A stretch of 64,000 nucleotides of DNA from Siphonodentalium dalli (lineage: Eukaryota > Mollusca > Scaphopoda > Gadilida > Siphonodentaliidae), in assembly GCA_032622095.1 (NCBI GenBank), contig CP136063.1:31436987-31500986 (forward strand), written 5' to 3'. Position 1 is the stretch's first letter, and the number at the start of each line of letters is the position of its first letter. This document shows positions 12,862-55,191 of this stretch, piece by piece. The notes beneath the pieces were generated by a model. That model saw only the letters and a program-made list of their open reading frames with translations. It made no database searches and was not told the origin of the DNA. A program made the translations under genes and the position numbers.

Positions 12862-13079
12862 TCTGTAACATGCATGAATGCTCAGTATTATCCATGAATC
12901 CATGCTAAAACTTTAATTATAAACACCCCGAATGATCAGTAACATACATGAAGGCGCAATATCACCCATTCTAGAACTTTAATTATAAACACGCCGAATG
13001 CTCAGTAACATACTTGGATGCTCAGTATCGGGGTATTTTAATCTGAAATGTTATTCAGTACACTTTTCGATAGATTTAA

Positions 13080-18756: not shown

Positions 18757-19758
18757 ATGATGTATGGGCAGGTGAAGCCATCAACAATGAACACTGAAGA
18801 TGATAAACACACGCCGATAAATACGTCACCGATGACTGTGGACTCGGAATCGTTGAGCAGTTTTCCCAGTAAGACAAAGCATAAGGGTTCATATCAGTGT
18901 GGGGTCTGCGAGAAATCATTTACTCGCTCGAGTCACTTGACGACACATATGATGATCCACACAGGAGATCGTCCGTATCAATGCGATGTGTGCGAGAAAT
19001 CATTTACTCAGTTGAGTAATCTGAATATGCATAAGAAAATCCACACAGGAGATCGTCCGTACCAATGCGACGTGTGCAAGAAATCATATACTCAGTTGAG
19101 TAATCTTACGACACATAAGATTATGCACAATGGCGATCGCCCGTATCAATGTGATGTGTGCGAGAAATCATTTACCCAGTTGGGTAATCTGAACATTCAT
19201 ACGATGATACACACAGGAGATCGTCCGTACCAATGCGATGTGTGTGAGAAATCATTTAGTCAGTTCGGTAATTTGAACATGCATAAGAAAATCCACGCGG
19301 GATATCGCCCGTATCAATGTGATGTGTGCGAGAAATCATTTGCTCAGTTGAGTTACCTGACGACACATAAGATGATGCACACTGGAGAACGCCCATACCA
19401 ATGCGATGTGTGCGAGAAATCATTTACTCAGTTGTGTAATTGGAAGATTCATAAGAGAATCCACGCGGGAGATCGCCCGTATCAATGTGATGTTTGCGAT
19501 AAATCATTTACTCAGTGTGGTGCCCTGACGACACATAAGAGGATCCACACGGGGGATCGCCCGTATCATTGTGATGTTTGCGGGAAATCATTTACTGTGT
19601 CGGGCCATCTGACGAAACATAAGAGGATCCACACGGGGGATCGCCCGTATCATTGTGATGTGTGCGAGAAATCATTTACTGTGTCAAGCCATCTGACGAA
19701 ACATAAGAGGATCCACACGGGGAATCGTACGTATCATAGTGATGTGTGCGATAAATAA
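18757..19758 (+). CDS. Tandem C2H2 zinc-finger protein, array 1
   Basis: A 333-residue frame with a ~45-residue leader (MMYGQVKPSTMNTEDD..., Ser/Thr-rich) followed by ten regular C2H2 fingers of 28 residues, roughly residues 47-326. Each is of the form Y[11 protein letters not shown]7-H-x3-H with linker H-T-G-D-R-P instead of the usual TGEKP. The backbone is nearly constant while helix positions vary (RSSHLTT, QLSNLNM, QLGNLNI, QFGNLNM, QCGALTT, VSGHLTK), the usual sign of a DNA-binding array. There is no KRAB, BTB or SCAN domain. The second ATG (18,760) aligns with the start of the paralogue at 34,865. The frame ends in the eleventh finger at a TAA that replaces the Ser codon of KSFT, and its first Cys is Ser. 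Likely a nuclear DNA-binding protein or a recently broken one; a 5' exon cannot be excluded. Confidence 0.8.
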   Translation: MMYGQVKPSTMNTEDDKHTPINTSPMTVDSESLSSFPSKTKHKGSYQCGVCEKSFTRSSHLTTHMMIHTGDRPYQCDVCEKSFTQLSNLNMHKKIHTGDRPYQCDVCKKSYTQLSNLTTHKIMHNGDRPYQCDVCEKSFTQLGNLNIHTMIHTGDRPYQCDVCEKSFSQFGNLNMHKKIHAGYRPYQCDVCEKSFAQLSYLTTHKMMHTGERPYQCDVCEKSFTQLCNWKIHKRIHAGDRPYQCDVCDKSFTQCGALTTHKRIHTGDRPYHCDVCGKSFTVSGHLTKHKRIHTGDRPYHCDVCEKSFTVSSHLTKHKRIHTGNRTYHSDVCDK

Positions 19759-20320
19759 TTTACTGTGTCGGGCCATCTGACGAAACACAAGAGGATACTC
19801 ACGGGGGGATCGCCCGTATCATTGTGACGTCTGCGAGAAATCTTTTACTGAGTCGGGCCATCTGACGAAACATAAGATGATCCACACGGAGGATCGCCCG
19901 TATCACTGTAATGTGTGCGAGAAATCATTTACTGAGTCGGGCCATCTGATGAAACATAAGATGATCCACACGGGGGATCGCCCGTATCACTGTAATGTGT
20001 GCGATAAATCATTTACTGAGTCGGGCCATCTGGCGAGACATAAGAGGATCCACACAGGCGACATATAGTTATAAATGTGATATGTGTCAAATCATTTACT
20101 CAGTTGGGTCACATGAATATGCATAAAACGATCCACACAGGCGGCACGTATTTATCAATGTGATGTGTGTGAAATCATATACAGTGACATGACGAAACAT
20201 AAGCGTATCGTGCGGGGGGTGTCGACCGTAACAATGTGATGTGTGTGAAAGCATTTACTCAGTCGGGTGACCTCACGAAACACAAGCGGTTCCACACGGG
20301 TGATCTCCTTTATCATTGAA
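19759..20320 (+). pseudogene. Decayed continuation of zinc-finger array 1
   Basis: Fingers continue without a gap after the stop at 19,756-19,758. One more finger remnant is followed by an extra G in the CACGGGGGGATCG linker. Then comes a clean stretch with two complete fingers (within 19,877-20,068: CNVCEKSFTESGHLMKH and CNVCDKSFTESGHLARH), and then shortened fingers with several indels to about 20,320. The ancestral array therefore had some 15 or more fingers and has lost its 3' third. Confidence 0.8.
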
Positions 20321-22668: not shown

Positions 22669-23164
22669 TGTGGGATGCCAAATTGACATTTAATAAATAA
22701 TTGAGCTTAAGCGCAATAAGGAATCCCTTATTAGCGCAATAAGGAAAAATCTAATTGCCCTTAAGCACAATAAGAGATTCCTTATTGCGTTTAAGCGCAA
22801 TAAGGAATTTCCTTATTGGGCTTAAGTGCAATAAGAATATTCCTTATTGCGCTTAAGCGCAAATAAGGAATATTACATAAACTCCCCATAATTCCAATAG
22901 TGTAGTCCATGGTGCAATGGGTGGAGTTTATTGGTCACATGGTGACTGTCCACGTGTAGGCCTATTCAGATTCCATCAGATTCTATCCCTGTTAACAGGC
23001 AAATATAGGATAATTCTACTATTTTCTCACGAGGGAGATATTAATTGCACTTAAGCGCAATAAGGATGTATTGCGGTTAAGCGTATAATAAGGAATGTTC
23101 TTAATAAGATTCCTTATTGCGCTTAAGCTCAATTATTTATTAAATGTCAATTTGGCATCCCATA
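22669..23164 (+). mobile_element. Palindrome-rich MITE with 6-bp TSD, copy 1
   Basis: A 496-bp element flanked by perfect CAGTAT duplications (22,663-22,668 and 23,165-23,170). Terminal inverted repeats begin TRTGGGATGCCAAATTGAC and run through TTTAATAAATAATTGAGC for about 50 bp. The interior is mostly repeats of TTGCGCTTAAGCGCAATAAG, itself a palindrome centred on CTTAAG, so the whole unit can fold into many nested hairpins. A unique core (GTTAACAGG... near 22,990) sets the orientation. No coding capacity, so it depends on a transposase elsewhere. Confidence 0.9.
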
Positions 23165-23216
23165 CAGTATAAGATATATTGGGAGCAGGGTAGATCATGC
23201 CATGAATCTCTACTCT

Positions 23217-23718
23217 TATGGGATGCCAAATTGACATTTAATAAATAATTGAGCTTAAGCGCAATACAATAAGGAATCTCTTATTGCGCTTAACGCTTAA
23301 GGAATATTCTTATTGCGCTTAAGCGCAATTAGATCTTCCCTTATGCGCTTAAGCGCAATAAGAACATCCCTTATTGCGCTTAAGCGCAATTACATCCTTA
23401 TTGCACTTAAGCGCAATTATTATCTCCCTCATGAGATCACCCCTCTGCAAATAGTAGAATTATCATATATTGCCTGTTAACAGGGATAGATATTGATTGC
23501 ACCATGGACTAAACCATTTGAATTATAGGGAGTTTATGTAATATTCCTTATTGCGCTTAAGCGAAATAAGAATCTCTTATTGCGCTTAAGCGCAATAAGG
23601 AATCTCTTATTGCTCTTAAGCGCAATAAGGAATTTTCTTATTGCGCTTAAGCGCAATAAGGGATTCCTTATTGCGCTTAAGCTCAATTATTTATTAAATG
23701 TCAATTTGGCATCCCATA
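23217..23718 (-). mobile_element. Palindrome-rich MITE with 6-bp TSD, copy 2
   Basis: A 502-bp copy of the same family, 52 bp downstream and in the reverse orientation (its core, including CTGTTAACAGGG near 23,480, is inverted relative to copy 1). It is flanked by perfect TACTCT duplications at 23,211-23,216 and 23,719-23,724. The two independent, perfect but different 6-bp duplications fix the element ends as TATGGGATGCC...GGCATCCCATA. Confidence 0.9.
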
Positions 23719-24289
23719 TACTCTGGCTAATATGACTTTGGGGCATAGATTTGGGCCATAGCTATGGTCATATAGCAATAATGTGGTGTCACTGTATAAG
23801 GGCTTGCTTACCTCATATGGTGTACTTATTGACTTAAATCGGGTGAAAAACCCTATTGTCATATTATCAGCATCCCTGTCCCAAAAATTGGTGTTTCATT
23901 CCGGGAGCTTTGATGTATCACTCCTCGAGCTCTGGTAGTTTTATTAAATCAGCGGCTCTTGCACAGATCTATAGTTTTTCGAGGTCATAAACTGTAGCGC
24001 GAATATGGTGTCACTGAGGACCTGCTTCCCTAATATGGTGTACCTGTATATGTACTCGAAAATCAAAGTTGCCCCAACTAATACAGAAGTTAATACTACC
24101 ACGAGTTGCCACAACTAAAACAGAAGGTAATGCTATTGCGAGTCTACCATTTCGATAAAGAACTTAGGCTTGCTCCCATGCAAACCAATGAAAACAAGAG
24201 GTGATATGTCAATAAGAGCTAAGGTTGAGTTATGGATTAACCTATTTATTCACCAGGGGTGTTTAGTTACATACATGTATAACCACGAA

Positions 24290-24533
24290 ATGCGCTTAAG
24301 ATTAGGCAATTGATTGTGTGTAAGCAAAATTGATTGCGCTTAAGCACAAATAATTATGTTTTCAAGAACAAATCACTATGCTTAATCACAATCGATTGCA
24401 CTTAAGAGCAATGATTGCTCTTAAGCACAATGATAAGTTCAACTAATTGTGCTTAAGTGTAATTATTTGTGCTTAAGTGAAATTAATTGCACTTAAGCGC
24501 ACTTCATTATTAAATGACAATTTGGCCTCCCAG
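24290..24533. mobile_element. Old, diverged relative of the CTTAAG-palindrome MITE
   Basis: Repeats of ATTGCGCTTAAGCACAA-like units end in TTAAATGACAATTTGGCCTCCCA, which matches the MITE terminus with several substitutions. The left end could not be defined. Confidence 0.6.
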
Positions 24534-30006: not shown

Positions 30007-33000
30007 ACAGCATGCTACCCATCAACATAAGCATGATATAAGATCTCGCCCTACATATAAAATTCCACACAGGCGTTACGATACAAATAACAAACAACGA
30101 ACGACTGAACAACAACCAACCCAGAGAAACCAAAAGTAGTCTGAAGTTACTACAAATACATCCAACACAGAAACCGCTTTCAGCAGTTCACTGTCAACAC
30201 CACCACTGGATACTCCACAACAGACCCAAAATTCTTTTTTGTCACAGGCCAAGCCTCCACAAAATCAGATGTGACACAGGATAACGTGAAGTTCGATGAC
30301 GCAGAAAAACTAACTATCGTAACATATAATGTTAAGAATATCAAAACATCGTCATTAGTGTTTAAAGATCTACAAAAATTTGCAGACGTGATATTGGTCC
30401 AGGAACATTGGTTATTCAACTGTCAGCTGAATCTATTAAACGAAGTAAATTCAGATTTCACAGGAGTTGGCAAAGCTGTTGACGACAAAGAACCGATCGA
30501 ACAACATAAAATGCCCCGGGGTTATGGAGGAGTTGCCGTGCTTTGGAGAAAATCTCTAGATCGTTATGTGAATCCAGATAGCTGCGGTGGCACAAGAATC
30601 CAGTGTATCGAATTCAACTGTGCGAAACCAATCCTCTTCGTCTGCGTTTATATGACCACACGCTCAAACGATCAAGATCATGAATTCGACGAAGTAATTG
30701 ACCAGCTGTTCACAATAAATACTACATACAAGAACTCACATCGAGTCATCATCGGAGGCGACACGAATGAATATATTGCCGTATTAAACACTAATCAACG
30801 TGCCACGAATCTAAGAGACTTAATGACAGAATGCGGACTGCGAACTAACTTCAAGGGAAAACCCTTCATCAATGTCTATGGAGTACTGGTTTCAGAGATA
30901 GATTATATTTTCCATCCAAAGTCTATGACAGACGTTACAACAGCCAGGGTCATGAATCTCTCGTCTAACCCATCTGACCATATACCAGTTTACTTGGAAC
31001 TGCATGAAAGAATAGAAATAGCAAAAACAAATAAGACTCCTGTCATTTCACGGAAAGTTAACTGGAAAAAGATCAATACTGAACTATACGCAAGCGCTGT
31101 AACACACAAATCTGCAACGCTGAAGTGTATTCCCGGCTCTACAAGCACAGTTCAACTGCAACATGCCGTGACTAAATTATCATTGGTGCTCGAGCAGTGT
31201 GCAAATGAGGCAACTACAGTGAAAAAACCATCACAGAATAAACCAAATCTTGAAGTCTGGAACAGAGAGATAGCCGCAGCCCTATATTCAAATAGAAATG
31301 CGCACAGTAGCTGGGTAAACGCTGGAAAACCATCAGCCCACGATAACATGCCTTTAGTACAAAAGAAAGAATCTCGTAAGCTCTACCGCACGAAAGTTCG
31401 AGAAGCAGTCAGCATGAAGGATGCAAGATATAAGGACAAGATCATGACAACAAGGGCATCTGATTCTGAAACATTCTATAAATTAATAAGTAAACAGAGA
31501 AATTCGGGAGCCGTAATGATATCTGACCTTAATGTGGACGGACAAGTGTACAGTAATGAGCAAGTACTACAAGGCTGGCATCAGCACTTCAGCGATCTTG
31601 CTAAACCAGCAGCCAATGGCTACAATCACAATTTCCCGAAACTATGTCAAAGGGACTATCAACACATCTCAGAATGTCTACCAGACGACAAGTTATAAGA
31701 GGTCAGCTGTGGGGACGTGATCAATGCATTAGGATTTCTACATAGAAGAAAAGCCCAGGATATCTTTGGGCTAACAGTGGAGCATTTTATCTTTGGTGGC
31801 GAGGACCTGCTAGGTATACTAACGAGCATAATCAACTGTATCCTGATAAATAAAGAAGTGCCTGCAAATCTCAAGATCGGCCTACTTAATCCAATATATA
31901 AACGCAAAGGCGACAAGACAGCCTCTTCCAATTATCGGGGCATCACTGTGTTACCAGTTATCCTGAAAGTTGTGGAAGTCATCATGCGTGAATACCTACG
32001 AAAATGTACTCTACCTACACAAGCTCCAACTCAAAGAGGATTCACTGCCAACGCGTCTCCACTTAATAGTGCATTGATGGTCGAGGAGATAGTCAGAGAA
32101 GGCCTGGATAACAACACACCGATATATGTAGCATTCCTGGATGCGAAGTCAGCCTTTGACGTTGTCACAAAAGAAATACTGATGAGAAAAACATACCTCA
32201 CAAACACTCACGCTGTTTGCTGGTCAGTGATCGATAACCTTCACACAGACTGTGTATCCGTTGTAAAGTGGAACAACCAAAGATCGGAACCATTCGAGAT
32301 ATATCAAGGAGTGAGACAGGGGGTTATCTTAAGCGCCGACCTCTACAAGCTATATATAGAGGATCTACTGCATTCACTGCTGGCGAACAGTCTAGGTAGC
32401 AGCATTGGAACCATCCGAATGAACTCCACAGCATGCGCATATGATGTCGCACTGATGAGCAGTGATCCAAATTACCTCCAAATCCTGATCAACACTGCAT
32501 ATCAATACAGTAATTTACATCGGTATCTCCTTCAACCGAAGAAAAGTGTAATATTGAAGATTTCACCAAACGGAATAAAAAATACTGTTGACAAAACATG
32601 GGATCTGGCTGGGACACAGATGCCCAACGTCGATGTGGCAGCCCATCTTGGTATACTCCGCTCAACAACAGCCACCAAATCAGTCATGGAAACCATACAA
32701 AATAATATCAAAAAGGCGAGAAGAACAGCTTATAGTCTAATGCCGCTTGGATTCCATGGGGAGAATGAATTGGACCAAGAGACATGCCTTCATATTTATA
32801 GGACATATGTTATTCCCACTTTGACATATGGATGTGAAATCCTGCTACCAGAAGAAAGACACGTCAACATGCTGGAGGGATATCAGAAGAAGTTCGTTAA
32901 GCAGTTGCTATCTCTACCACCAAATGTAGCCAATCCTGCTATATACATACTGTCAGGTCTCCTCCCGATAGAGGCACAAATCGACTTGAAGGCTCTCACG

Positions 33001-33901
33001 TTCTTCAACAATCTCACCCATCAAGATGAATCTTCAATAGAGAAAAAACTGGCACTCCGCCAACTAATCTTGAAAGATGAGAAAAGCAACAGCTGGTTGT
33101 CTGAGGTCAGGAGAATACGAGCTACCATCTCCATTGAACTTATTACATCACCCCGTGAAGAAAAATGCATGGAAGAAAATTACTAAAGACTCAGTCAACC
33201 GCTACTGGAAGAGCTACATTACTACAAGATGCCATTTGTACAGCACCTTACAACTACTAGATCCCACTACCTATACACCAGGAAAGATCAACAACATCAT
33301 TGGTGGTATGAATTCAGCTAATTACATCACAGCAAGGATTGCGGTGAAGCTGGAGATGCTGACTAACACATATACGCTAGAAATACACAACCAAAAATTC
33401 AACATCTCAAAGTCAGAAGGGATATGCCGTTGTTGTAACTTGAAGAGAGAGACTATTGAACACCTACTGTTGGAATGTGAGATCTTAGAGTCGGTTAGAG
33501 GGGGTTGTCTTCAACATATCAAGAACATATATGATGAAATAACGAAAGAGGATTTCAACAACTTGTCGACAAAGGACAAACTCACAGTCATCCTGGGTAA
33601 TGGGATTCACAGATGGCAGATTGAGGATTGCGAAGGGGTTGCAGCTCTGCTATCAAGACTAAAGATCAGCTGTATGCATCTATGCTATCGCTTGCACTGT
33701 GCCAGAAAGAAGTACTCGATCGACAGAGAGAACATTGGTGGCGACGAATGACCGTGCACGGTGCATTTTAACCTATATATTTTATACATTTTATCCCCTA
33801 ATATGGTGACGTTATGGTACCTGTAAATATGTACAGTTCACTCAACAAGTTGAGGTTGTCCGATGCTGGACGGTTGGATTGCAGAAGTAAGAAGTAAGTA
33901 A
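30007..33901 (+). pseudogene. LINE with APE endonuclease and RT, nearly full coding length, broken
   Basis: Frame 30,271-33,751, open upstream without an ATG. N-terminal AP-endonuclease (VTYNVKN, VQEHWL, YGGVAVLW, IIGGDTNEY, EIDYIF, NPSDHIPV) is followed by RT: LLNPIYKRKGD, SSNYRGITVLP, FLDAKSAFDVV, QGVRQGVILS. In the catalytic box ACAYDVAL, Tyr occupies the first Asp position (codon near 32,440). A C-terminal CCHC (CRCCNLKRETIEHLLLEC) completes it. One in-frame TAA lies at 31,696-31,698 and a frameshift falls near 33,115 before YELPSPLNLL. The 3' end is a GTAAGAAGTAAGTAAG tail. It sits inside copy B of the TTAA element. Clade is uncertain (jockey/CR1-like); low decay implies a fairly recent insertion. 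Confidence 0.88.
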
Positions 33902-34864: not shown

Positions 34865-36850
34865 GTATGGGGAGGTGGAGTCGGCAACAATGGAGACCGG
34901 AGATGATAAACACACAACGCAAATACATCTCAAACAGGCGTTGATTCATTAGTCAGTTTGCACAATAAGGATAATAAGGATATTCGTTTGTTGGAGCACA
35001 ATGGGATACACACTGTTGATCTTCCATATCAATGTGATGTGTGTGAGAAATCATTTACTCAGTCAAGTGACCTGGTGAGACATAATAGGATCCATACTGG
35101 AAATCTCCCTTATCAATGTGATGTGTGCGAGAAATCATTTACTGATTCCAGTCCTCTGACTTCACATAAGAGGATACATACTGGTGATCGACCGTATCAA
35201 TGTGATATGTGCCAGAAATAATTTACCACGTCCAGTCACCTGACTTCACATAAGAGGATCCACACGCTGGATCGGCCGTCTCAATGTAATGTGTGCGAGA
35301 AATCATTTACTCAGTCGAGTCACCTGACTTCACATAAGAGGATCCACACGGGGGATCGACCGTATCAATGTGATGTGTGCGAGAAATCATTTACCCGGTC
35401 GAGTGACCGGTCTTCACATAAGAAGATCCACACGGGGGATCGCCCCTATCAATGTGATGTGTGCGAGAAATCATTTACTCAGTCGAGTCCCCTGACTTCA
35501 CATAAGAGGATCCACACTGGGGATCGCCCGTATCAATGTGATGTGTGCGAGAAATCATTTACTACGTCCAGTCACCTGACTGAACATAAGAGGATACATA
35601 AGGGAGATCGCCCGTATCAATGTGATTTGTGCGAGAAATCATTTACTCGGTCGGGTGGCCTGACAAAACATAAGAGGATACATACGGAGGATCGACCGTA
35701 TCAATGCAATGTGTGCGAGAAATCATTTACTCAGTCGAGTTATCTGACTTCTCATAAGAGGATCCACATGCGGGATCGGCCGTATCAATGTGATGTGTGC
35801 GAGGAATAATTTACTACTTCGAGTCAACTGACTTCACATAAGAGGATATATGCGGGGGATCGACCGTATCAATGTGATGTGTGCGAGAAATAATTTACTA
35901 CGTCGAGTCAACTGACTTCGCATAAGAGGATCCACACTGGTTATCGACCGTATCAATACGATGTGTGCGTGAAATCATTTACTACGTCCAGTCAACTGAC
36001 TTCATATAAGAGGATCAACACTGGTGAACGCCCGTACCAATGTGATATATGTGAGTAATCATTCACTCAGTTGAGAAGCCTGGTGAATCATAAGAGGATC
36101 CACACAGTAGATCACCCGTATCAATGTGATTTTGCGATAAATCATTTACTCAGTTGGGTAGCATGACGAGACATAAGCGGATCCACATGGAGGAATTAAC
36201 CGCATCAATGTGATGTGTGTACGAAATCATTTACTGAGTCGAGACACCTGACGAGACATAACATGATCCATACGGGAGATCGCCCGTATCAATGTGATGT
36301 ATGCGATAAATCATTTACTGCGTCGACTCACCTGACGATGCATTTATAAGCGGATACATACAGGAGTTTGCCCGCATCAATGTGATTTGTGCGACAATTC
36401 TTTCGTCCAGCCGAGTGACTTTGCGAAACAAACGGTTCCGCATCGGGATCGCCCTACCAAGGTGATTTATGCGAGAGAAATCATTCCCTCAGTTGAGCAG
36501 CTTGGTGAAATAGAGGATCCACTGGCGGCTTACGACAAATATTAGAAAATACACACAGGAGTATGGTTATGTAAATTGTTTGACGACAGATGAGAGCATA
36601 CACTCCGAAGATCGGCCATATCCATGTGATATGTACGAGAAATCAAGTGTCAGTATGAATCACGTAGAATGCATAACATAATGAAAACAAGTAGTCGCCC
36701 GTGTCCATGTGATATGAGAGGTTTGTTACTTGAATCATTTGAAAAGACAGGATACTGAATACATGCGATCGGCCGTATCCGTGCGACACATCATTCACTT
36801 GCTGTTGCATTCGATAAGTCACACCGGACCGTGACTCATAACACGATAAT
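34865..36850 (+). pseudogene. Zinc-finger array 2, decayed paralogue of array 1
   Basis: The leader [18 protein letters not shown] matches array 1's leader, then a ~2-nt loss shifts the frame. From 34,958 the finger frame runs with KSFT-type C2H2 units and TGDRP linkers (2 fingers to 35,221; 6 complete ones in 35,291-35,809). It stays in phase to about 36,130 through TAA codons at 35,219, 35,807, about 35,891 and about 36,057, after which indels accumulate to 36,850. Helices (QSSDLVR, DSSPLTS, RSSDRSS, TTSSHLTE) differ from array 1. At least 15 fingers existed. A short product of 6-8 fingers is conceivable but there is no intact start-to-stop frame. Confidence 0.85.
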
Positions 36851-37904: not shown

Positions 37905-37934
37905 CAGTCTAGCAGCCAAGTACCGAATTTTGCC

Positions 37935-38080
37935 CTAACCCAAAATTCTCTGTTAAAGTTTTTTTCTCGGCGGATAATTCATTAGTAGTATCTCGGCAAC
38001 TATTTTCCGGTTGATGTGCTCTTGTAACCCTTGGGGAAATTTAAATATTCAACATTGCAACAACCTACCCAAAACGACAT
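37935..38080 (+). repeat. Left inverted repeat of the nuclease/CXC element
   Basis: Contains the 34-bp perfect core at 37,935-37,968, TTCCGGTTGATGTG at 38,005-38,018, TAACCCTTGGGGAAA near 38,025 and CTACCCAAAA near 38,065, each with an inverted partner at the right end in the mirrored order. Confidence 0.8.
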
Positions 38081-38367
38081 ATGGCCATACGGGTGTGATC
38101 ATGTTTTATTCAGTAGCATAAGTTGGAAATCACGTAAGAACGTTGGTTTATGTACGTATGTTCACACCAGATAACACAAATGTCAAGATCTTACTTTTAT
38201 AGGATTATACAAAATGGCGGTCAAAATGGCCGTCATACAATCTACACTTTCATGTTACGAAAATGTACACTTTCGAAACATGACTCAACGGTGACACCCA
38301 ATATGATAGACCGGTTTTTGTTATGTCACGTGTTCGCATATGCATATAGAACAAAAATAGGTCAAGT

Positions 38368-41300
38368 ATGTCGAAATGCTTATTCAAATTCAGTTACAAA
38401 GAAGCTTGCAATAGCAATGAAAAGTGCACTGAAAATGCCGGTGAGGCGCGCATACACTCTATAATATACGCGAGCAAAGTATATGGCGATGGCCTGCATG
38501 AAACACTCGAACAAAGTCTTAATATAGACAGCAAACTTAAAGTGTCGTTTCACAGAAATTGTGCTTCCAGATACACATCAAAAACTAATGTTGAAGCATC
38601 CAAACGCAGCAATTCACCAGCTATTCCACCGAAACGTTCACGTAGGTCAGCAGGCAACTTTAATTTTCAAACTGATTGTCTATATTGTGGTGAGACATGT
38701 AATGTCGAAAAAGAACGCAGACATCCAGATCGATGGCGTCCTGCTTTCATTTGCCGATCAACGCAAACAGTAGATGGGAAGCCGTATAAGGTCGCTCTTG
38801 TGGAGAAGTGTGATTTGCGAAGAGACGAGTGGGCAAGAGGTTCGGGGTAGAATTGAGAGTGCGGTTAGTGATTTGCACGCTGTCGGGGCAAGATACCACA
38901 GAGACTGTATGACAAAATTCCTACAAAACCGATCATTGGGAGCAACCGATACGATGTTACCAACCTAATTCCATGACCTTGAATTGCAGTTTATTATTGA
39001 CGAAATGTCCGATCAAAGAGACAAAATATGGAATTCGGCGGATGTGTTTGGTATGTATGCTAGCAATGGTGGGTGTAAGTTGACACTCCCCCGGTTGGTA
39101 TCAGAACTTATTTCTCATTTCGACGGCGAACTATTGTCATTGTCTGCACCAGGATATGCAAATGTTCTTGCTTTCCATAAGAATACCGCCTCTGTGCTAA
39201 GACTTGTTAAAGATGACAACGACGACGATCTTGAACCATCTGTTCGAAAAGTGGCTAGTAGTATCGTTAATGAGTGCAGGGAACTGGCAACACATATATC
39301 TACATATAGAGTCCATATTGATAGAGATAATGCTGAGGATTCAGTGTCTGAAACACTTAAAAACCTCCTGCGAGTAATATCGACTAAGTTTGATAAAACA
39401 TTGCCTGCGCTACTTATAGGCAACATCGTCACAAATATCGTAACTGGTCATGTTACCGATTTACAAATTGCTCTAGGTATATTTTTGCGAGATTCTAAAT
39501 CGGTAATAAACCATCTTTACGATTAAGGTTAAAAAAATCGGCGGCATTAGCATCATCGGTTCATACGTATGCGAGCTCATCACTGAGTAGCGGAAAAGGT
39601 TTGTTGCAGGTCATAGCCGACAACTTCGATGCTGACATTAGTTCGCCGAATGGCAAACTTTCAACCCATTCTCTCGCAATGATAGCGACACAACCGTCGG
39701 ACGGCAATGTGATTGAACATATCAGGCAAGAACTAGAAATTCCCCGTTTAGAGAAAGCATACATCCCACTGGTAGTACTGGATGACAACGTAACTAATGT
39801 GTACGTTGACTTAAAGAAGGACCCATCCATGCCGACTGTTCCGCTGAGTAATATATCCGGTGACTTTCGCAATTATCAAAATATTTCGATATGGCGCGCA
39901 GAGGAGTGTGATTTTGCATTTTTTCAAGATATGCATCGAATTGATACTTGTCCGGAATATAATGGATACAATACAAAAATGAGCAGGGAACACGAACGAG
40001 CTCTTTCGCCAAAAACCATTGTCGGTTATCTACCGCTAATCGACCGGCCGCCTGCAGATCCATCGACAATGATGACAGCCATGTTAAAGGCGAAATTAAT
40101 CTCAAACGCTGCTCGGCAATAATTTGTAATATTTGTAGCAGACCAACTATTATATCGGATTGCACTTCACGTCAAGTGGGACAATCCTGACATGTTTAAG
40201 AACACATATATAAGGTTAGGAGGTATGCATTTGCTCATGAGCTATTGTGGATCCATCGGGTCACTGATGGTGGGAACCGGCCTGAAAGAAATTTTAGAGT
40301 CGACTTTTGGCGGAGTCTTAAAAATGCTCAAAGGCAAGAAGTTTCCTCAAAATATAAGAGCTTTGCGTCTGTTGACAGAAGAGTTACTCCGAGCAGTATT
40401 TGAAACACATGATGATATGCGGTGCATGTGTGACCTCTTTGTTGTTCTGGAGGCATCCGCATGTGAAAGCAGAACCGATAAGCTCTGGATTGAATGTCTA
40501 ATCAAACCCATGTTCATAATACTGAGATATATTAGAGCAGAGCGGGAATCTGATTGGCCGCGCCATCTAGACACCGTTGAGGAGATGATTCCTCTTTTCT
40601 TCGCAGCTGGTCACATTCATTATGCCAGATATGCACTCTATTACATATACAATAAGCCGGAACGTGAAAACAATTACATCAGCTAGTAAGCATATAAACA
40701 TTGGCAGCGTACAAATTTTCGACACAGAAGTGATCTATGCGAGGGCAATGGGATTGAAGAATAGTACGAGGAGCTTGGATATTGATGACATCCTTTCGTA
40801 TGAGTTATCGCCCTATCCACCTTCCATGTTTGAGTCTAACGGACATATGAAGGAAGCAAAGTCCAAATCAAACCTGAATAATGCGCTACGTGTTGACATC
40901 ATTTCTGACGTACCAAAGGGCGGTGTCAGCCATGCCACCTTCCTAGACGGATGTGCAATTCTATGGACAGTACGATGGCCACCACTGGGAGTAGTGCAAG
41001 ATTTCCTTGATGAATTTCGGTCTTATATACTTGCAACACTGAGAAAGAAGACAGATGTATACTTGATATTCGATAGGTATAATAAATTCAGCATCAAAGT
41101 ATCGACGCGATTAGCCCGAGACAAAGGGGCTAGCAGATTCTTCACACTCAAGCAAAACACGAGGCTACCTTCACAAAAAGTTATCCTGACAGTGAGTGAC
41201 AACAAAGCACAGCTTATTGACATGATTGTTAATGATCTCCAGGTGCACCAGGAATGTTTTGCCAATACAAATAAACGACTCGTAGTAACCGGAAAGGATC

Positions 41301-42200
41301 CCATTCCTATAGAGATTAATAAGGGCATATGTATCAATAGGCGTGATCTCAGATCGACCCACGAAGAAGGAGATACTCTCATTGTTCAGCAGGTTGCGAG
41401 AGTAGCAGCCCAAACATCGTTAGTTGTGGCAGATGACACTGACATATTTGTAATGTTACTCCATTTCCTTTATCATGGTGATTTATCCGGCCATATACTG
41501 ATGGTAGCACCGGCAAAGGGACGGATCACAATAAACATAAATGAAACGCTCAAAGCTCACATGAATATCGCTCGTGTCCTTTTAGCAATGCGTGGACTCA
41601 CGGGATGTGACACTGTCGCGGCTCTACATAGCATAGGGAAATGTACTGCCCTTAAGATTCTCAAAGTTGGAAATCACAATCTAACAGATATTGGCATGCC
41701 ATCTGCTGCAATAGAGAGAGTTGTAGATGCGGCTAAGCCATTTATTTTGGATTGCCAATCAACCACAGATGCTCGACGGAAGATATGGTCAAACAAAAGT
41801 TAGTCGCAGCATGGCTGCTGTGCCAAAACTGAATTCTCTACCTCCAACCGACGATGCTTTAATTGAAAATATTAAACGCGCCCACTTACAGGTAAGTGCA
41901 TGGAGACATGCGCTTGATGACACACCTGCTGATCTCAATCAAACTGATTACGGCTGGTCGAGAGAGAACGGATCACTCGTCCCAACCGTTGTCCCAACTG
42001 GGAAACCACTAGCTCCTGAGGCTATACTAAAACTCATTAGATGTTGTTGTGCTTCAAATGTCCCTTGCATGACCATACGTTGTGGCTGTAGGCGTGTGGG
42101 TTTAACTTGCACGGCGTTCTGTTCGTGTGAGGGGGACAGTCGGTGTATGAACGAGCTGACACATCGACAAGACGAGGAAGATACTGATGACATACACTGA
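38368..42200 (+). pseudogene. EXO1/FEN1-like nuclease with zinc-binding N-terminus and CXC domain, broken
   Basis: N-terminal part (38,368-38,850) has Cys/His clusters (MSKCLFKF, HRNCASRYTS, CLYCGETC...HPDRW). The middle part includes RYHRDCMTKF, LRLGGMHLLMSY-like IRLGGMHLLMS and FGGVLKMLKGKKFPQN (40,210-40,360). The C-terminal frame 40,622-41,803 carries, in order, DGCAILW (res. 109), LIFDRY (148), SIKVSTR, HEEGD (247), ADDTDIF (270), LTGCD (326) and IGKCTAL (338). These align with EXO1 words DTYCWLH, LVFDGC, YEAD, EDSDLL, LSGCDY, GIG..KA. The last part (41,727-42,200) has a CXC-type cluster (CCCASNVPC, CGC, CTAFCSC). Frame changes near 38,835, 39,525 and 41,795, TAA at 38,966 and 40,120, and an apparent internal loss near 40,670 show it is dead. 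I recall similar multicopy, unnamed proteins in corals and molluscs. Confidence 0.75.
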
Positions 42201-42295
42201 CTGCTCTAGGTACATTATTTATTCAATACACCAATGCTGATTTACATATGTCATTATAATTATTTTGTTTCTGTCCTAATGACATGTTGTTACCA

Positions 42296-42301
42296 AATAA
42301 A
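42296..42301 (+). promoter_or_regulatory. AATAAA poly(A) signal
   Basis: AATAAA about 95 bp after the end of the CXC-domain frame, inside the right part of the element; position fits a polyadenylation signal for that gene. Confidence 0.45.
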
Positions 42302-42534
42302 GCGAAAATGTTATATGTCGGAAGCACTGCCTTGATAGACTTGCAACAGTTATGATTTGAGCAATGAGTGCGGCCATTTTGGCAGCCATCTTGAGTATTT
42401 AATTGTCGATTTTGTCCAGTTTATGTTATTTGTCACAGCATGTCATAATACATACATCGTATCGTATTTCTGCTGCCATATATGCTGTTATTGATACGGA
42501 GATGGATCTGACATGGTCAAGGTATACACACTAT

Positions 42535-42675
42535 TTAAGACTTTTGGGTACTCAGCGGCCATTTTGAATAACAAAAGTTTCCCAAAGGTTACACATCAAC
42601 CGGAATATCAATAAAGACACCCCCGTGATACATTATCAACAGAGAAAAAAACTTTAACAGAGAATTTTGGGTTAG
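42535..42675 (-). repeat. Right inverted repeat of the nuclease/CXC element
   Basis: Inverse of the left repeat: 34-bp perfect core at 42,642-42,675, CACATCAACCGGAA at 42,592-42,605, TTTCCCAAAGGTTA near 42,578 and CTTTTGGGTAC near 42,541. Confidence 0.8.
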
Positions 42676-42889
42676 ACCCCAGTTCTGCTGGACGACATAC
42701 TCCATTAAAACGTACAATTCTTCAGCGAATAAGTTAGCAGAAGGATGAAGCCAGCAAATGCAGTAAGTACAATTGCATACCCCCATCTGAACAACGGAAT
42801 GTTTCTCGGTATCAGCAAAATTCTGTCCGCACAAAACTTAATTAAAATTCATAGCACATGTAAGTTTATCAAAATTTGGCATAGGTTAA

Positions 42890-47106: not shown

Positions 47107-47735
47107 AAGAATAAGAACCATTTCATAACCCTATTATTTGGTCATATTGGCAGGCGTCTTGTTCAGAACAAAATAAACAAATGCTTAGCAGCTAGTCGGA
47201 ATTAATTTCTCCTTTTGTTATGTCACGATACAGCCTCAGCTGTTGAATGTGACAATAAACACGGGCAAACAATCAAAGTCAGTGTTCAAATGGTTAAAAA
47301 GAGTAAAGCTTTATTCCACCAATCTAGGTGTTATCCTAGATATAAATGTGCGCATGCGCGGAAGAGGAAGTCTTCGAAAATTTTCGGAAAGATTTTCAAA
47401 TTATTTTTGCATAATCTACCTATTTTGTTTTACTATGTCAGTAATAAATTGTTTGTAGCTGATCTGAACAACTTGAAGCACAAAACTACGCCGACCCGAT
47501 CGCCGAAAGACAAACGGAACACCGGTTTGAAAGTTGAAAAATAGCTATCCTATTTTCGTGGTATCAACAACATCACGGCAACAGACTTTCGTCGAAAATA
47601 AATATAAAGGTAAAATAGACGCTTCCAATCGTAACATCAATGATATGTCAAGTTGTATGTCAGATTGAGTTGGGCAGCATGGACTTGTCACCAAGCTATA
47701 TCAACTCACTCTCCTGGCTGCAATTTTGACACTTC
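47107..47735. other. Probable 5' UTR of the CR1-like LINE
   Basis: Two short overlapping frames (47,215-47,544 and 47,243-47,458) lie here in different phases and have no motif. The segment from about 47,500 is less AT-rich and runs without a boundary into the LINE coding frame at 47,736. Confidence 0.35.
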
Positions 47736-50700
47736 ATGAAGATTGAGAAGAAAATAGACCAGAAAACAAAGATGCAACATATGCTGTACATGCCTGCTAG
47801 AAAATCAATGAAAGTAGAGAACATGATTTTATACCTACTATACCTTGCCATTCTCCTGATAATAAAATCATCGGACTGCGAAACAAATCCAGGTCCCCGG
47901 ACTCCAAAGTACCCTTGTGGAATTTGCGAGAAAGCCACCAAATGGGGACAAGAAGCCCTATGCTGTGATGACTGTGACACCTGGTATCACGTGAAATGCA
48001 TGGGAATGAACAGCCCGGTATATCAGGTCTACACTAACGCATCAACATCTTGGATATGCTGTCAGTGTGGAATGCCAAAGTTCTCAACGACACTATTCGA
48101 CCAGTCTTCATCAATATTATCAGAACAGGGACCGAGCTCCTATGATTTTGACTGCGAATTGAAATCGCCCAATATACAAGACCCAGGGCCTCCAATGCTC
48201 AGTTCATCACCTAAAGATAACACCACTTCCAGTATTGAAATACCAAAAGAGATGCGAGTACTACTGGTAAATTTTCACAGTGTGATGAACAAAAGAGATG
48301 ACCTTGAAAACCTGTTGTCAAGCTCAGCGCCAGATATCATCATAGGCACCGAAACCTGGCTAAAACCAAGAATCTTTAGCTCAGAAGTCCTGCCAGATAG
48401 TTACATCATAGCTGCAAGGAAAGACAGATCTGATGGCTATGGAGGTGTCATCATTGCCACTAAATCATCAATCCCATGCCATGAGATCCAGATAGAAAAC
48501 TCAGAGACGAACAACAGACTTGAATTAGCAGCAGTAAAGATATGTTGCAAAAACAAACAGGAGCTTGTGGTTATTTCCATTTACAGACCGACAGACGACA
48601 ACGCTGAGTACAGTAAACACTTGTGTGAGGCCATAGCCAAGTTAGTCAAGCAAAACAGGCATGCCACCATCTGGATTGCAGGCGACACTAACCTCCCCGA
48701 CATAAACTGGGAAAACCTAACAGTAGATGGAAACCAATATCAGAAGGTCATCAATAATGTTTTCATCGAAACGATGCAAGACTGTGGAATGAAACAGATC
48801 GTCACCTTCCCAACACGAGGCAATAACATCCTAGACACCTTCTTCACCAACAGACCATCGTTGTAATAGCTCTCAAGGTAGATTACGTCGTTGACCATCG
48901 TTGATAAACCTATGTAAACCAGCTCCGGGATTAGGTGATCATGACATTGTCTTTGTGACATCAAACATCACAGCACAATACAAGGCACCAACAAGAAGGA
49001 AGATATATCTCTGGTCCAAGGCAGACATGACTGAGTTATCGCTAGCAGCAAGGATCCAGACAGAACATTTCAGATCCAACTACTCAGTGAAAGACGATAT
49101 TGAAACACTCTGGTCGGCTTTCAAGGACATCTGCATTCAACTTCTCAAGCTAGTACCATCCAAAATGAGCACCACCAGATTCCATCAACCATGGATTAAT
49201 GGAGAAATCAAGCGCCTGTCAAGAAAGAAACATCGGGCTTATAATAAAGCCAAAAAAACTTGACTGGGAACGCTTCAAACAACTGAAAAATCAAAGTCGC
49301 AAACAATGCAAGGCAACCAAGTCCAAATACATCATGGATCTAGTGACTGAAAACGATGGGAGGAGAACATCAAAGAGACTATGGACTTACATCAAGAGTA
49401 AAAGGAAAGATAGTTCTGGAGTGTCACCACTGAAGAGAAGAGGAATTATATACAGCGACGCCAACACAAAGGCAGAGATACTCAATCAGCAATTTTCATC
49501 AGTATTCACCACAGAAGACACCACAAATATACCAGCTGAGCCCATCCCGGTGAATAAAGTGGACGAAATAGTCGTCACCGAAAATGGAGTACTTAAATTG
49601 CTAAATAACATCAACATACATAAGGCCACTGGACCGGACGGTATTCCTGGACGACTACTAAAAACAGTCGCTTCAGAAATTACACCAATGCTGACAAAAC
49701 TCTTTCAATCCTCAATCAACCAAGGGAAAATACCAACTGACTGGAAAGAGGCATATATCACTCCATTGTACAAGAAAGGAGATAAAACATCTGCATCAAA
49801 CTACCGTCCAGTATCTTTAACATCAATCTGCAGCAAACTTCTAGAACATATAATTCACCACCATCTAATCAGTTATCTGGAATCAAACGACCAGTTAACA
49901 GACTTTCAACATGGTTTCAGAAAGAACAGATCATGTGAAACTCAACTTCTCTTGACGGTGGATGACTTAGCAAGAGGACTATTTAAAGGCGAACAGATCG
50001 ACGCTGCACTACTCGACTTCTCCAAGGCATTCGACAAGGTACCGCATCAGAGATTACTACAAAAGTGCATAGGACATGGCATAAATGACAACATCTTGGA
50101 ATGGATAAAGGATTTTCTCTCAAACAGAACCCAGAGAGTCATCTTAGAAGGTCATCTCTCCGAAGAAAAACCTGTAACATCAGGAGTACCACAAGGAACA
50201 GTTATGGGACCATTACTGTTCCTTATCTACATCAACGACCTTCCCAAATGTGTGACAGCTACACCCCGCTTGTTTGCAGATGACTGCTTGTTGTACAGGA
50301 CAGTAAAATCAAAAAAAGACGCTAAACTGCTCCAGGAAGACCTTGACTACCTTCAACTTTGGGAAAAGAAGTGGCAGATGGAATTCAATGCGGACAAATG
50401 CGAGATCATACGTATAACAAACAAAAGGAAACAAAATGTCTTGGAAACCCAGTACACCATTCATGGGAAACCACTACGATGTGTGAACTCTGCAAGGTAT
50501 CTCGGTGTCAACATCAAGGAGGATGTTAGTTGGAATGACCATGTTTCCAAGATCTGTAAAAAGGCAAATTCTACAACAGCCTTCATTGGAAGAAACCTAA
50601 CCAACTGCAGCCCCAACATCAAGGAGCAGTGTTACAATGCCATGGTGCGTCCAATAGTAGAGTACTCATCGACTGTATGGAACCCACACACAGCGGAAAA

Positions 50701-50870
50701 CATCGAGAAACTGGAGAAAGTTCAACTGAGAGCAGCCAGAATGGTCCAGAACAACTACCAATGGAGGAGCAGCCCAAGAACGATGGTGAAAAACCTTGGA
50801 TGGAAATCACTTGAAGAAAGACGAAAAGATGCCACCTTGTCTATGTTCTTCAAGTGTTCTTCTCCTGTGT
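47736..50870 (+). pseudogene. CR1-like LINE: 2A-like leader, PHD finger, endonuclease, RT; broken and 3'-truncated
   Basis: Residues 31-54 form a hydrophobic stretch ending in SSDCETNPGP, a 2A-like motif (D-x-E-x-N-P-G-P). Residues 61-113 form a PHD finger (CGIC...CCDDCDTWYHVKC...WICCQC). Endonuclease follows (VNFHS, GTETWL, YGGVI, YRPT, AGDTNLPDINW, LDTFFTNRP, GLGDHDIV), then RT (ATGPDGIPGRLL, ITPLYKKGDK, SNYRPVSLTS, FQHGFRKNRS, LDFSKAFDKVPH, SGVPQGTVMGPLLF, RLFADDCLLY) and thumb (FNADKCEIIRI, YLGVNI). CR1 assignment rests on the PLYKKGD/SNYRPVS/FADD pattern and on the known occurrence of 2A in invertebrate CR1 elements. Breaks: a 40-bp insertion at 48,864-48,903 and a one-base shift in an A7 run near 49,255. 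The 3' end is lost at a junction with a Pao element at about 50,868. Confidence 0.92.
47826..47897 (+). other. 2A-like peptide with N-terminal hydrophobic segment
   Basis: Encodes MILYLLYLAILLIIK then SSDCETNPGP. The predicted ribosome-skipping point is between Gly (47,892-47,894) and Pro (47,895-47,897). This would release a 53-residue leader from the PHD-EN-RT protein. Fusion of a signal-like hydrophobic stretch with 2A is known from sea-urchin and other invertebrate proteins. Confidence 0.8.
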
Positions 50871-51050
50871 GGTAAAATGCTGGGACATCTGACACCCTAC
50901 TATGAGGCAAAGGTGGTAGATCGGGAAGACGGTATGGTTTGCCAGTGAGTCTGCGACACGTTACACACTGTGCAAGTACTGTTCTGACCCTCTGTCTGAT
51001 TCTAGGGATCCAGTAATTCGATCGTATTGATGCAACTGTGGAGGTCACTC
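50868..51050 (-). pseudogene. Pao/BEL integrase zinc-binding region (fossil)
   Basis: Reads STVASIRSNYWIPR, RTVLAQCVTCRRLTGKP, LPDLPPLPHSRVSDVPAF, the N-terminal zinc-binding part of a Pao-type integrase, then meets the LINE sequence. Confidence 0.8.
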
Positions 51051-51359: not shown

Positions 51360-52440
51360 TTCTTTTTTGGCATTGTGGGCAAATCGTAGTATCCAGGCCG
51401 TTACACGGCATACTTTCCTTAGTTCCGAGAAACGTGTAGTGTCTATCACTTCCTGGATATTTGGCGGGGTTTCTGTAGTCATGCTAGACACTAGTATCGG
51501 TTCTTCAGTGTCATCTGGAATCGAAACCATGGATATAGTTTCATCAACGCTTGGCTGACACAGTAGCCATTTGGGTCCACCAAGCCACATTGTAGATGTT
51601 TTCAGCTGCTCAGCGGAAACACCACGTGACAAATATCAGCTGGATTGAGTTATGATGAACAATATCGCCAGTAACTGTTGTTGATGTCTGAGAATGTTGT
51701 GATTTCCTTGTAACGGTTTTCAACAAACTTCACTTGCCTTTTGTTGGATTTCAACCAACTGAGAACAATTGTACTATCAGTCCAAAACTGAATAGTAAGA
51801 CCTGGTATAACGGTGGCCAAGGTATCAAATGTCCGTTTCCCCAATCTAACCGCCAGTGTTGCTGCCATTAATTCCAGTTGGGGGATAGTTAATGGCTTGA
51901 GGGGGGGGGGGGGGAACTCTCGATTTAGCGATCACGAATGATATATTGTTGGCTGTTTGTAGGTAGCAAACTGTCCCGTAGGCTGGTGCGGCTGCATCAG
52001 CAAACACATGGAGTGTGTAAACGTCTTCGTCGTGTCCAAGAACAGAGTCACGCAAACATGGGTACTGTCGTGGAATTTCTATTTGGATAGCAGCATCAAC
52101 ATCTGATGCTATGCGCATCCATTCAGTAGCATATGTCTCAGGTAATGGTGAATCCCATTCAAGTGGTTCTTTCCATAATTTTTGCAGGAGAATTCTTGCT
52201 CGAACGGTCGTCGGAGCTAGCACTCCAAGCGGATCAAACACACGCGCAATTTGCTGGAATACCATGCGCTTGGTTATAGTATGCGAGTCGCTGTGATTGA
52301 CTGAATCAACGTGGCTACAGGACAACGTGTCATGATGAACAGACCAAAGGAGACCCAACACTTTCACCTGATCGGGTGTTTCTTCAAACTCTGGTGTTAA
52401 GCAGTTAGACGCCCAACTTCGCAATTTGAAATGTGCCTTT
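51360..52440 (-). pseudogene. Pao/BEL RT thumb and RNase H-like region (fossil)
   Basis: Contains MTKAHFKLRSWASN, VLGLLWSVHHD, RMVFQQIARVFDPLGVLAP, LHVFADAAAPAYGTVCY and FWTDSTIVLSWLKS, the words that follow the polymerase palm in Pao/BEL elements. Confidence 0.85.
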
Positions 52441-52449
52441 GTCATGGTT

Positions 52450-53875
52450 TAATTTGCTTCTCGTTGAAATTCTAAAGCGTCAGACATTGTTGGGAAGCTG
52501 CATACAATGTTATCAACGTAAATGTTTTCCTGCATAATTCCGGCACATTTTGAGAATTCTTTGGTCTCATTCAGGTGGCGATTTATTGTTGTGTTCAATA
52601 TGAAAGGCGAGCATGTCGCCCCAAACAGAACTCTCTTGAAACGATACACTTGAAAATCTCTTTCCGGGTCCGAAGGATCTGATAACCAGAAGAATCGGGT
52701 GACATCACGATCGCTTTCATCAAGACTTATATTTAAGAATGCTTTCTCAATATCGCTTGTCACACCAATTGCACCAACGCGAAATTTCACCAGAATAGAC
52801 GTTAAGTCGTTTAGCAAGGGTGGTCCGCTCTCTAGACAATCATTAAGTGATGGAAGATTCCCATGTGAACAGCTGCAGTCAAACACAATTCGAACTGGTG
52901 CTGTAGGTGACTCTTTCATGACAGGATGGTGTGGAAGGTAGTGCATCCTGTTAGATTCATGAATGTCGGGATGAGGAACAATCTCTATGAAGTCTCTAGC
53001 CAACTGATCTTCAATAATATGTGCGTACGTTGTGAAGAGGTCGGGCTTCTTTGACAGGTGCCTAACCATTGATCGTGTTCTGTAATTGGCAATTTCTATG
53101 TTAGTCGGCAAGTCTTGGTGGTCAGTTTTCCAGGGTAGTTTCGCGTGATATCTCCCATCTCGCAGCTGTATGGACTTTTCACAATAGTCTTTCGTGAATG
53201 TTTCATCTCGATCGTCTTGTGAGCAGCTAGTTATCCCGAACGTTTCCAGATCCCAGAATCGCTTCAATTGTGAATCGTCTGGCTCAGTCAGAATGTTCAG
53301 TAAAGCTGCATTTCTTTCTTTGGTACCGGTAGCAGTTTCGGATCTTATTGGTCCACATAGAAGGTAGCCTAATTTAGATTTCACAGCAATGGGACCGTTT
53401 GCTGACTTGATATGCTGACCATCCACAAAGTGATAATAAAAATCACTGCCGATGAGAAGCGAAATTTCAAATTTTTCACAGTTATAGTTCAGCGGGTGGG
53501 CTAATTTTAAACCCGAGAATTCTGAGATGTCACATCTAATTCTGCTTGCCATTGGAATATATTTTGTTATGGTAGGGAACACCAATAATTTGACAGGAAT
53601 GAGATGTGTTTCACACACTATGTGTGCAGTGATGGTTTCAAGTTCACGATACTTTGGCGTGTCTGAACCAAATGTGGATATGGTCAGAACCTCTTTTCCC
53701 TTTGATGTCAGTCCTAGTTCTTCTGCAAACTTCGCCGATATGAAGGATCTCTGAGAGCCGTCGTCAAGCAGCAGATGACCTAGTCCACTAATTTTCGTAT
53801 CCTCGTCGAATACAGTAGTAACAGCGGTTTTCAGGTAAACGAATGTTGGACTCGACGTTTGAGCAGTCGCAGCAG
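52450..53875 (-). pseudogene. Pao/BEL protease and reverse transcriptase (fossil)
   Basis: Protease-like segment (GLGHLLLDDGSQRSFIS) followed by a connecting domain with LLIGSDFYYHF and the RT palm (MHYLPHHPVMKE, VRIVFDCSC, PPLLNDLTSILVKFR, VTSDIEKAFLNI, RFKRVLFGATCSPF). Order and spacing are those of Pao/BEL pol. Confidence 0.88.
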
Positions 53876-53879
53876 TAGT

Positions 53880-54778
53880 CACAATTGCACTGGTGTCTCC
53901 TTTAATTTCTGGTCTGTTTTAGCGACGTCCTGCTCTTTATCCAAATTCTTTTCCTGGTCTTTGATATCGACGTCATGTGAAGCACTATTGCGATGGATGC
54001 TTGTGTGATGTTTAGATTTGCAGATCAAGCAACGTTTCAGTGAGCGGCATTTATTGACCCTGTGCCTACCGAGACAATTGTAACAAAGGTCATGTTTCCG
54101 TATGTGGGCCACTCTAGCTTCGATGTCTTTCATTGAAGTGCAATCGGATGGGAAATGTCCAGCATCGCAATACACACAGCTGCGAGATGAACTTTGATAT
54201 GTTGGCGTGGTTAGAGAAGTAATTGTACCGAAAACCTCTTCTTCTACATTACTCTGTGCTGACAACTTAAGGGGAGTACTTGTAGCTGGTTTGAGAAACT
54301 CTAGAACAGAAATTTCAGCTTGCAAGTCATCTCGGAATTCCTTGAGTTTCCACGCGCCATTACCATGTTTTCTATCCATGTTGCCTTTGATATCATTTGG
54401 AATTTGTCGCCACATAATCGGAAGCAACATCGATTCGTATGACTGCTCAGGGTGAGAAAGTGATTCTAATGCTCTGACTGAAGACTCTAGTTTATCCGAA
54501 AACATGCGCACAGAATGAATGCTCATTGTTGCAGAGGGTAGTTGTATTATGTTCTTCATATAGGAATCAATGATTGTGTGCGGTTGTCCGAATCGAACCT
54601 TTAACAAATCTAGTGCTTTGACATAGTTAGCGGCTGTTAATGGCAGACCATCTATGCAGGATTTAGCTTCTCCAACAATCGACGTTTTCAGATAGGTGAA
54701 CTTGTCAATGTCTCTTAATTGTTTTGATGAGTTCACCGAGGAGTCAAATATCTCCCAGAAAGTCTGCCACTCCATTAG
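53880..54778 (-). pseudogene. Pao/BEL gag, central and C-terminal part (fossil)
   Basis: WQTFWEIFDSSVN, KFTYLKTSIVGEAKSCIDGL, ALDLLKVRFGQP mark a DUF1759-type gag. CVYCDAGHFPSDC, LCYNCLGRHRVNKC, CLICKSKHHTSIH are zinc knuckles. The N-terminal part lies at 59,364-59,753 on the other side of the nested insertion. Confidence 0.88.
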
Positions 54779-55191
54779 GAGGGTGACGACCCCCCTTTTC
54801 GTACGCCGGATGCGGGGTCTGTTATGGCGTATTCCGGATGCCAGACCACCGTACGCCGGATGCCGTCGGGCACATATATCGGATGCCGGATGCTTCCATT
54901 AATAATTTTTCTTGACGTTAAACAGCAAAAACACAACGAAATTACGTCCGCTAATTTATATTTCTTTGCTCGGACGCTCTATTTCCCACAATTTAGCTAA
55001 GTATACGTCTCGTTATCACATCTGACATATCTAAATAGTGATAATTAATATTTAGTACCTACTGTTAAAATAAATCGCAATGCTGATCTGCGATATCGGT
55101 TTGTTATATTATCCGATAGAATTGTCGCCCATCTGATGTCTGCTTGGCAATAATTTTGAATATGTAACTAATTTTTATTAAATTTTGAAAA

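Follow-up and report, generated by a model that had tools for sequence, protein, structure and literature searches.

An inverted-repeat-bounded, decayed gene in Siphonodentalium dalli: a candidate nuclease-bearing transposon of the Academ superfamily

A decayed gene between inverted repeats

A stretch of 64,000 nucleotides from the scaphopod mollusc Siphonodentalium dalli (assembly GCA_032622095.1, contig CP136063.1, positions 31,436,987 to 31,500,986 of the forward strand; hereafter the window) contains one copy of an element of about 4.7 kb (4.74 kb, window positions 37,935 to 42,675). Inverted repeats at both ends enclose a single gene, and the encoded protein combines an EXO1-like nuclease part, a CXC-like cysteine module, and a long upstream region that could hold a transposase core. 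Features are collected in Table 1.

The outermost 34 bp of the two ends are identical at all 34 positions, and the terminal inverted repeat (TIR) arms as a whole share 72% identity over 140 alignment columns (blastn E 6e-16). More matched blocks pair 38002-38018 with 42592-42608 and 38023-38074 with 42542-42593. An inner block, which lies 275 bp and 282 bp in from the two element edges, matches at 20 of 23 positions, whereas the best of 60 shuffled arm pairs reached 17. Given the position of this block, the repeats may extend over about 300 bp, their middle parts having diverged. A preliminary description of this DNA, made from the letters alone, correctly recognized a TIR-bounded element; it placed the outer edge at 37905, some 30 bp outside the point where the clear repeat begins (37935). 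The octamer AAAATGGC, which was picked after the fact and overlaps in part with the inner block, occurs six times in the 64 kb, and four of these copies fall in the terminal regions, where those at one end face the opposite way from those at the other. A near-perfect palindrome just inside the left arm is a possible protein-binding site, and the CXC-target motifs TTYGAA and TTYRAA are not enriched in the arms. The left repeat edge (37933-37941) reads CCCTAACCC, telomere-like by one repeat unit; this is probably a coincidence, since the outer part is missing from the right edge.

The enclosed gene of about 3.8 kb has a likely ATG at 38368 and a stop at 42198-42200, and its path runs through frames 1, 2, 2, 1, 1, 2, and 0. 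It is interrupted by two in-frame stops (38966 and 40120) and changes frame at least four times, so the copy should not make a full protein; it is dead, as the preliminary description had said. Judged from the open reading frames (ORFs) alone, which follow one another in a nearly gapless series, introns are unlikely, and this fits the earlier view of an intronless coding region. The N-terminal part, rich in Cys and His, may be a zinc-finger-like DNA-binding region; it matched nothing in Pfam, and none of its PDB matches was significant. Pfam returned nothing significant for any of the element's gene ORFs, while it recognized retroelement proteins in all six of the other window ORFs submitted.

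Table 1. Parts of the element, in window coordinates
Feature	Position	Strand	Remarks
Left terminal inverted repeat	37935..38074	+	perfect 34-bp core, 37935-37968
Inner block, left arm	38210..38232	+	20/23 against right arm; two AAAATGGC copies (38211, 38223)
Near-perfect palindrome, 34 nt	38250..38283	.	15/17 pairs; contains TTCGAA; just inside left arm
Gene start: likely ATG and N-terminal Cys/His-rich part	38368..38850	+	CLYCG..., HRNC
Gene, continued in next frame	38774..39526	+	in-frame stop 38966
Candidate RNase-H/DDE transposase core	39499..40686	+	strand-D (39619, DNFD), strand-D (40141, ADQ), then all-helical; stop 40120
Open frame, 404 aa, with XPG/EXO1-like nuclease motifs	40589..41803	+	
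GCD/helix-2-turn-helix block	41597..41674	+	LTGCDTVAALHSIGKCTALKILKVGN; score 23.1, best of 100 shuffles 14.8
Single CXC-like cysteine module	42042..42152	+	CCCASNVPCMTIRCGCRRVGLTCTAFCSCEGDSRCMN; within ORF 41727-42200 (157 aa)
AATAAA polyadenylation-type signal	42296..42301	+	96 bp past the stop; second AATAAA at 42610
Inner block, right arm	42371..42393	-	inversely oriented AAAATGGC at 42373, with a further copy at 42558
Right terminal inverted repeat	42542..42675	-	perfect core, 42642-42675

The nuclease-like frame and the CXC-like module

The 404-aa frame contains DGCAILW, LIFDRY, HEEGD, ADDTDIF, LTGCD, and IGKCTAL, the six ordered motifs from which an EXO1/FEN1 nuclease had been proposed with a start at 40,622, an internal ATG of this frame. 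Seven acidic residues (D120, D162, E260, D262, D283, D285, and D341) stand in the order expected of EXO1/FEN1/XPG enzymes, and of the blocks that carry them only the GCD block is significant alone. In profile-profile comparison with hhalign, the score of this GCD/helix-2-turn-helix (H2TH) block (E 0.00095) is reached by none of 100 shuffles. The frame as a whole scores 25.9 (E 0.011) against a seven-sequence EXO1/FEN1 profile, with 22.95 as the best of 150 shuffles and 15.2 for the reversed sequence; against two EXO1s alone it scores 26.6 (E 0.007), with corresponding values of 22.1 and 12.6. The profile was limited to seven sequences because no FEN1 relatives were confirmed in viral contigs and none were matched in phages. 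An ordered pattern, FD - E(A/G)(D/E) - (E/D)DxD - G(C/T)D - (I/V)G - A, which was shaped with the query in view, matches the frame, both EXO1s, and none of 200,000 shuffles, and it matches none of five archaeal FEN1s. Its core is matched by one of the 19 window ORFs of at least 150 aa, presumably the 404-aa frame itself.

Thus, EXO1-type ancestry of the frame is likely but not proven, given the H2TH block and the order of the acidic motifs. The FEN/XPG fold is a different matter and is unproven. A PDB sequence search found no EXO1, FEN1, or XPG match, and an AlphaFold model made from the single sequence, without an alignment, has a mean predicted local distance difference test (pLDDT) score of 30.2, too poor for any inference about fold. 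Of the checks suggested in the preliminary description, profile-profile comparison favored the nuclease at the H2TH block and structure prediction gave an unusable model. Weak family matches, including one to aspartate semialdehyde dehydrogenase (E 0.23) and one to NarP (E 0.01, at 15 bits where the cut-off is 343), were treated as noise, as were other weak hits.

Near the end of the gene, the cysteine spacing is CXC-like. So that the query would fit, two gaps of the pattern used here were loosened by one to three residues; in this form it fits none of 300,000 shuffled versions of the 72-aa tail and also finds both modules of LIN54. Among 590 window frames of at least 40 aa it fits one, presumably the element's own. 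PDB matches of the 157-aa ORF include no CXC protein. The CXC-like spacing of the preliminary description therefore stands. Its further claim, that the module reads DNA sequence, may be correct, but the known sequence-reading of CXC domains cannot be assumed here, because the module is single and carries Arg in place of a Tyr.

The upstream stretch, searches for relatives, and surroundings

The region upstream of the nuclease-like frame bears on whether the element once encoded a transposase. A 395-aa stretch (39,499-40,686, with one stop read through) was modeled by AlphaFold without an alignment, at low confidence (mean pLDDT 35.5). In this model, strands are predicted directly before D41 (...LQVIADNFD) and D215 (FVIFVADQ), and only helices follow D215. 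An RNase-H transposase with a helical insertion is known among hAT-like enzymes, and the low-confidence layout upstream would fit such an enzyme. A DDE core in this stretch is thus plausible, not demonstrated. The statement of the preliminary description that the element has no DDE transposase is not supported, since the roughly 400-aa stretch has a layout that would fit an RNase-H core in the low-confidence model. At the end of the stretch there is a weak lead, and only that, to DUF6589 (E 0.029 for the piece, at 13.5 bits against a cut-off of 27; E 0.058 for the read-through); no mention of this family was found in the papers searched. The frame switches near 40,680, where a segment that related invertebrate proteins have may be missing.

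Many uncharacterized invertebrate proteins presumably share the motif order of the element. When IMG/VR and GTDB were scanned with degenerate DNA and protein patterns, no relative was confirmed; one scan gave two pattern matches and others gave none. A plasmid collection gave no match. Eight candidate loci from the IMG/VR and GTDB scans were set aside as chance, with no tblastn hit of the 404-aa frame better than E 0.59. Since these collections hold viruses, prokaryotes, and plasmids, they say little about a eukaryotic family.

The window around the element is transposon-rich and animal-like, with long interspersed nuclear elements (LINEs), a Pao/BEL-like element, zinc-finger arrays, satellites, and palindrome clusters. 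A 20-bp satellite array of about 636 copies occupies 1-12654, and the stretch 790-2546 repeats at 11131-12887 with 99.3% identity and no gaps; this is either a segmental duplication that arose recently within the array or an artefact of the assembly. Interlocking palindromes of about 30 bp (CTTAAGCGCAATAAGG.../...CCTTATTGCGCTTAAG) form tandem clusters at 22733-24501. Arrays of C2H2 zinc fingers, each with about 17 copies of an 84-bp unit, lie at 18892-20305 and 35004-36394. There are two LINE-type retrotransposons with endonuclease and reverse transcriptase (30145-33751 and 47730-50875), the second with a PHD finger ahead of the endonuclease. A retroelement on the minus strand (51846-54898), which we take to be Pao/BEL-like, encodes DUF1759, DUF1758, and RVT_1.

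Candidate family, alternatives, and comparison with known systems

We think it more likely than not that the element is a DNA transposon of the cut-and-paste kind, now decayed, from the Academ superfamily, and a candidate member most likely of the nuclease-bearing AcademX lineage. Academ is described as a DDE/D superfamily in bivalves, where the curated Academ elements have a mean length of 5,565 bp (PMC10294476). A second source states that AcademX encodes a nuclease and makes target-site duplications (TSDs) of 3 or 4 bp, that AcademH encodes a helicase and makes TSDs of 9 or 10 bp, and that the nuclease may be linked to the difference in TSD length (PMC10045372). A named group thus already exists for TIR elements of this size that bear a nuclease, contrary to the preliminary description, whose author knew no named superfamily with this make-up. 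Among the seven element ORFs scanned there is no AcademH-type superfamily II helicase, a segment that this copy could have lost. The AcademX nuclease is reportedly of the XPG type (Kojima, 2020), and Academ and AcademX are said to go back to Kapitonov and Jurka and to Kojima (2020). Most likely, then, the element is a new copy of an already known kind of transposon.

If so, a mechanism can be proposed. The N-terminal Cys/His region and the C-terminal CXC-like module would bind the element's long inverted repeats along with the AAAATGGC copies near its ends. An RNase-H-like DDE core would then cut and join the ends, and the XPG/EXO1-like module might trim or cut branched strands (5' flaps) at the junction of element and target, leaving a short TSD.

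Several points weigh against this assignment, which was made from published descriptions of Academ elements. No named DDE family in Pfam was matched, and the third acidic residue of a DDE triad was not found in the upstream stretch. No exact TSD of at least 3 bp is present at the symmetric repeat edge, where 3-bp duplications were sought at most 4 bp outward and 2 bp inward and where the exact ends of so old a copy are uncertain. The candidates for a TSD, a 4-mer located 32-34 bp beyond the repeat edge and two 8-mers that match except at two positions, were judged, without a null, to be at chance level. For the nuclease-like part, the hhalign probability is low, 22% for the H2TH block and 3.7% and 5.3% for the whole frame against the seven-sequence profile and the two EXO1s, respectively. 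The scores of the N-block and the EAD-block were reached by 13 and 18 of 100 shuffles, which is chance level, and hhalign placed neither block on its expected motif. Pfam matched no XPG model to the 404-aa frame and no family, CXC included, to the 157-aa ORF. Finally, in a control on the TIR with 404 pairs of stretches taken at random from elsewhere in the window, one pair beats it (103 vs 91; the runners-up score 85, 69, and 67).

The foremost alternative is that the element represents some other superfamily or deep lineage of DDE transposons, separate and without a name, in which the XPG-like and CXC-like modules were gained independently. It would account for the transposase part, which no Pfam, NCBIfam, or PHROGs model matches above noise, DUF6589 being the best, and a CXC module in Academ was not found in the papers searched. 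Nevertheless, it is unlikely, as a nuclease-bearing Academ lineage is already described (PMC10045372), and Academ elements are likewise reported to be TIR-bounded and of similar size (PMC10294476).

Far less probable is the earlier proposal, in which the element lacks a DDE transposase altogether and is moved by its XPG-like nuclease alone. Only one other domain is as well supported as the XPG-like block, and the lack of a Pfam match to a DDE family would suit such an element. However, this proposal leaves about 750 aa of upstream protein unexplained, a region whose strand-D/strand-D/all-helical layout, in a low-confidence model, would fit an RNase-H transposase, and no flap nuclease is known to join strands. 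The more specific form of the idea, in which a flap-type nuclease guided by the CXC module cuts strands for transposition while the upstream domain serves only for binding, would define a class without DDE catalysis, and we consider it very improbable. We give scarcely any credit to the idea that a remnant or retrocopy of a host gene lies between inverted repeats that arose by chance. The single copy in the window and the one high-scoring random pair speak for it; against it stand a perfect core and three further near-equidistant blocks, which closely flank the gene with its poly(A) signal, and the concentration of inversely oriented AAAATGGC copies (a motif picked afterwards) in the two terminal regions.

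The Academ assignment would weaken the claim of a transposon class lacking a DDE enzyme. The feature is real and ordinary in kind, and its interest is mainly as a lead to intact relatives, which would allow the role of the nuclease in TSD length to be tested. If the assignment is right, the element is another fossil of a transposon that coupled a transposase to a repair-type nuclease.

Comparison with known systems shows both shared and divergent traits. Like AcademX, which is bounded by TIRs, measures about 5 kb, bears its own nuclease, and is expected to have a DDE-type core, the element is TIR-bounded, 4.74 kb long, and equipped with a nuclease-like frame; as to the TSD of 3-4 bp and the DDE triad of AcademX, no TSD was seen at the symmetric edge of this old copy and a third acidic residue was not found. 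With EXO1/FEN1/XPG nucleases it has in common the GCD/H2TH block and the order of acidic motifs, being nearer by pattern to EXO1 than to archaeal FEN1, whereas its frame differs in being embedded in a transposon protein and in having no Pfam or PDB sequence match. The cysteine spacing shared with the Tesmin/TSO1 (LIN54) CXC domain is C-x-C...C...C-x-C...C...C-x-C...C-x-N. LIN54 has a tandem pair of such domains, whereas the element has one module, with one match only. The residue before the second C-x-C, a Tyr that contacts DNA in CXC domains, is Tyr in LIN54 (LKLYCDC, LKNYCEC) but Arg in the element (MTIRCGC).

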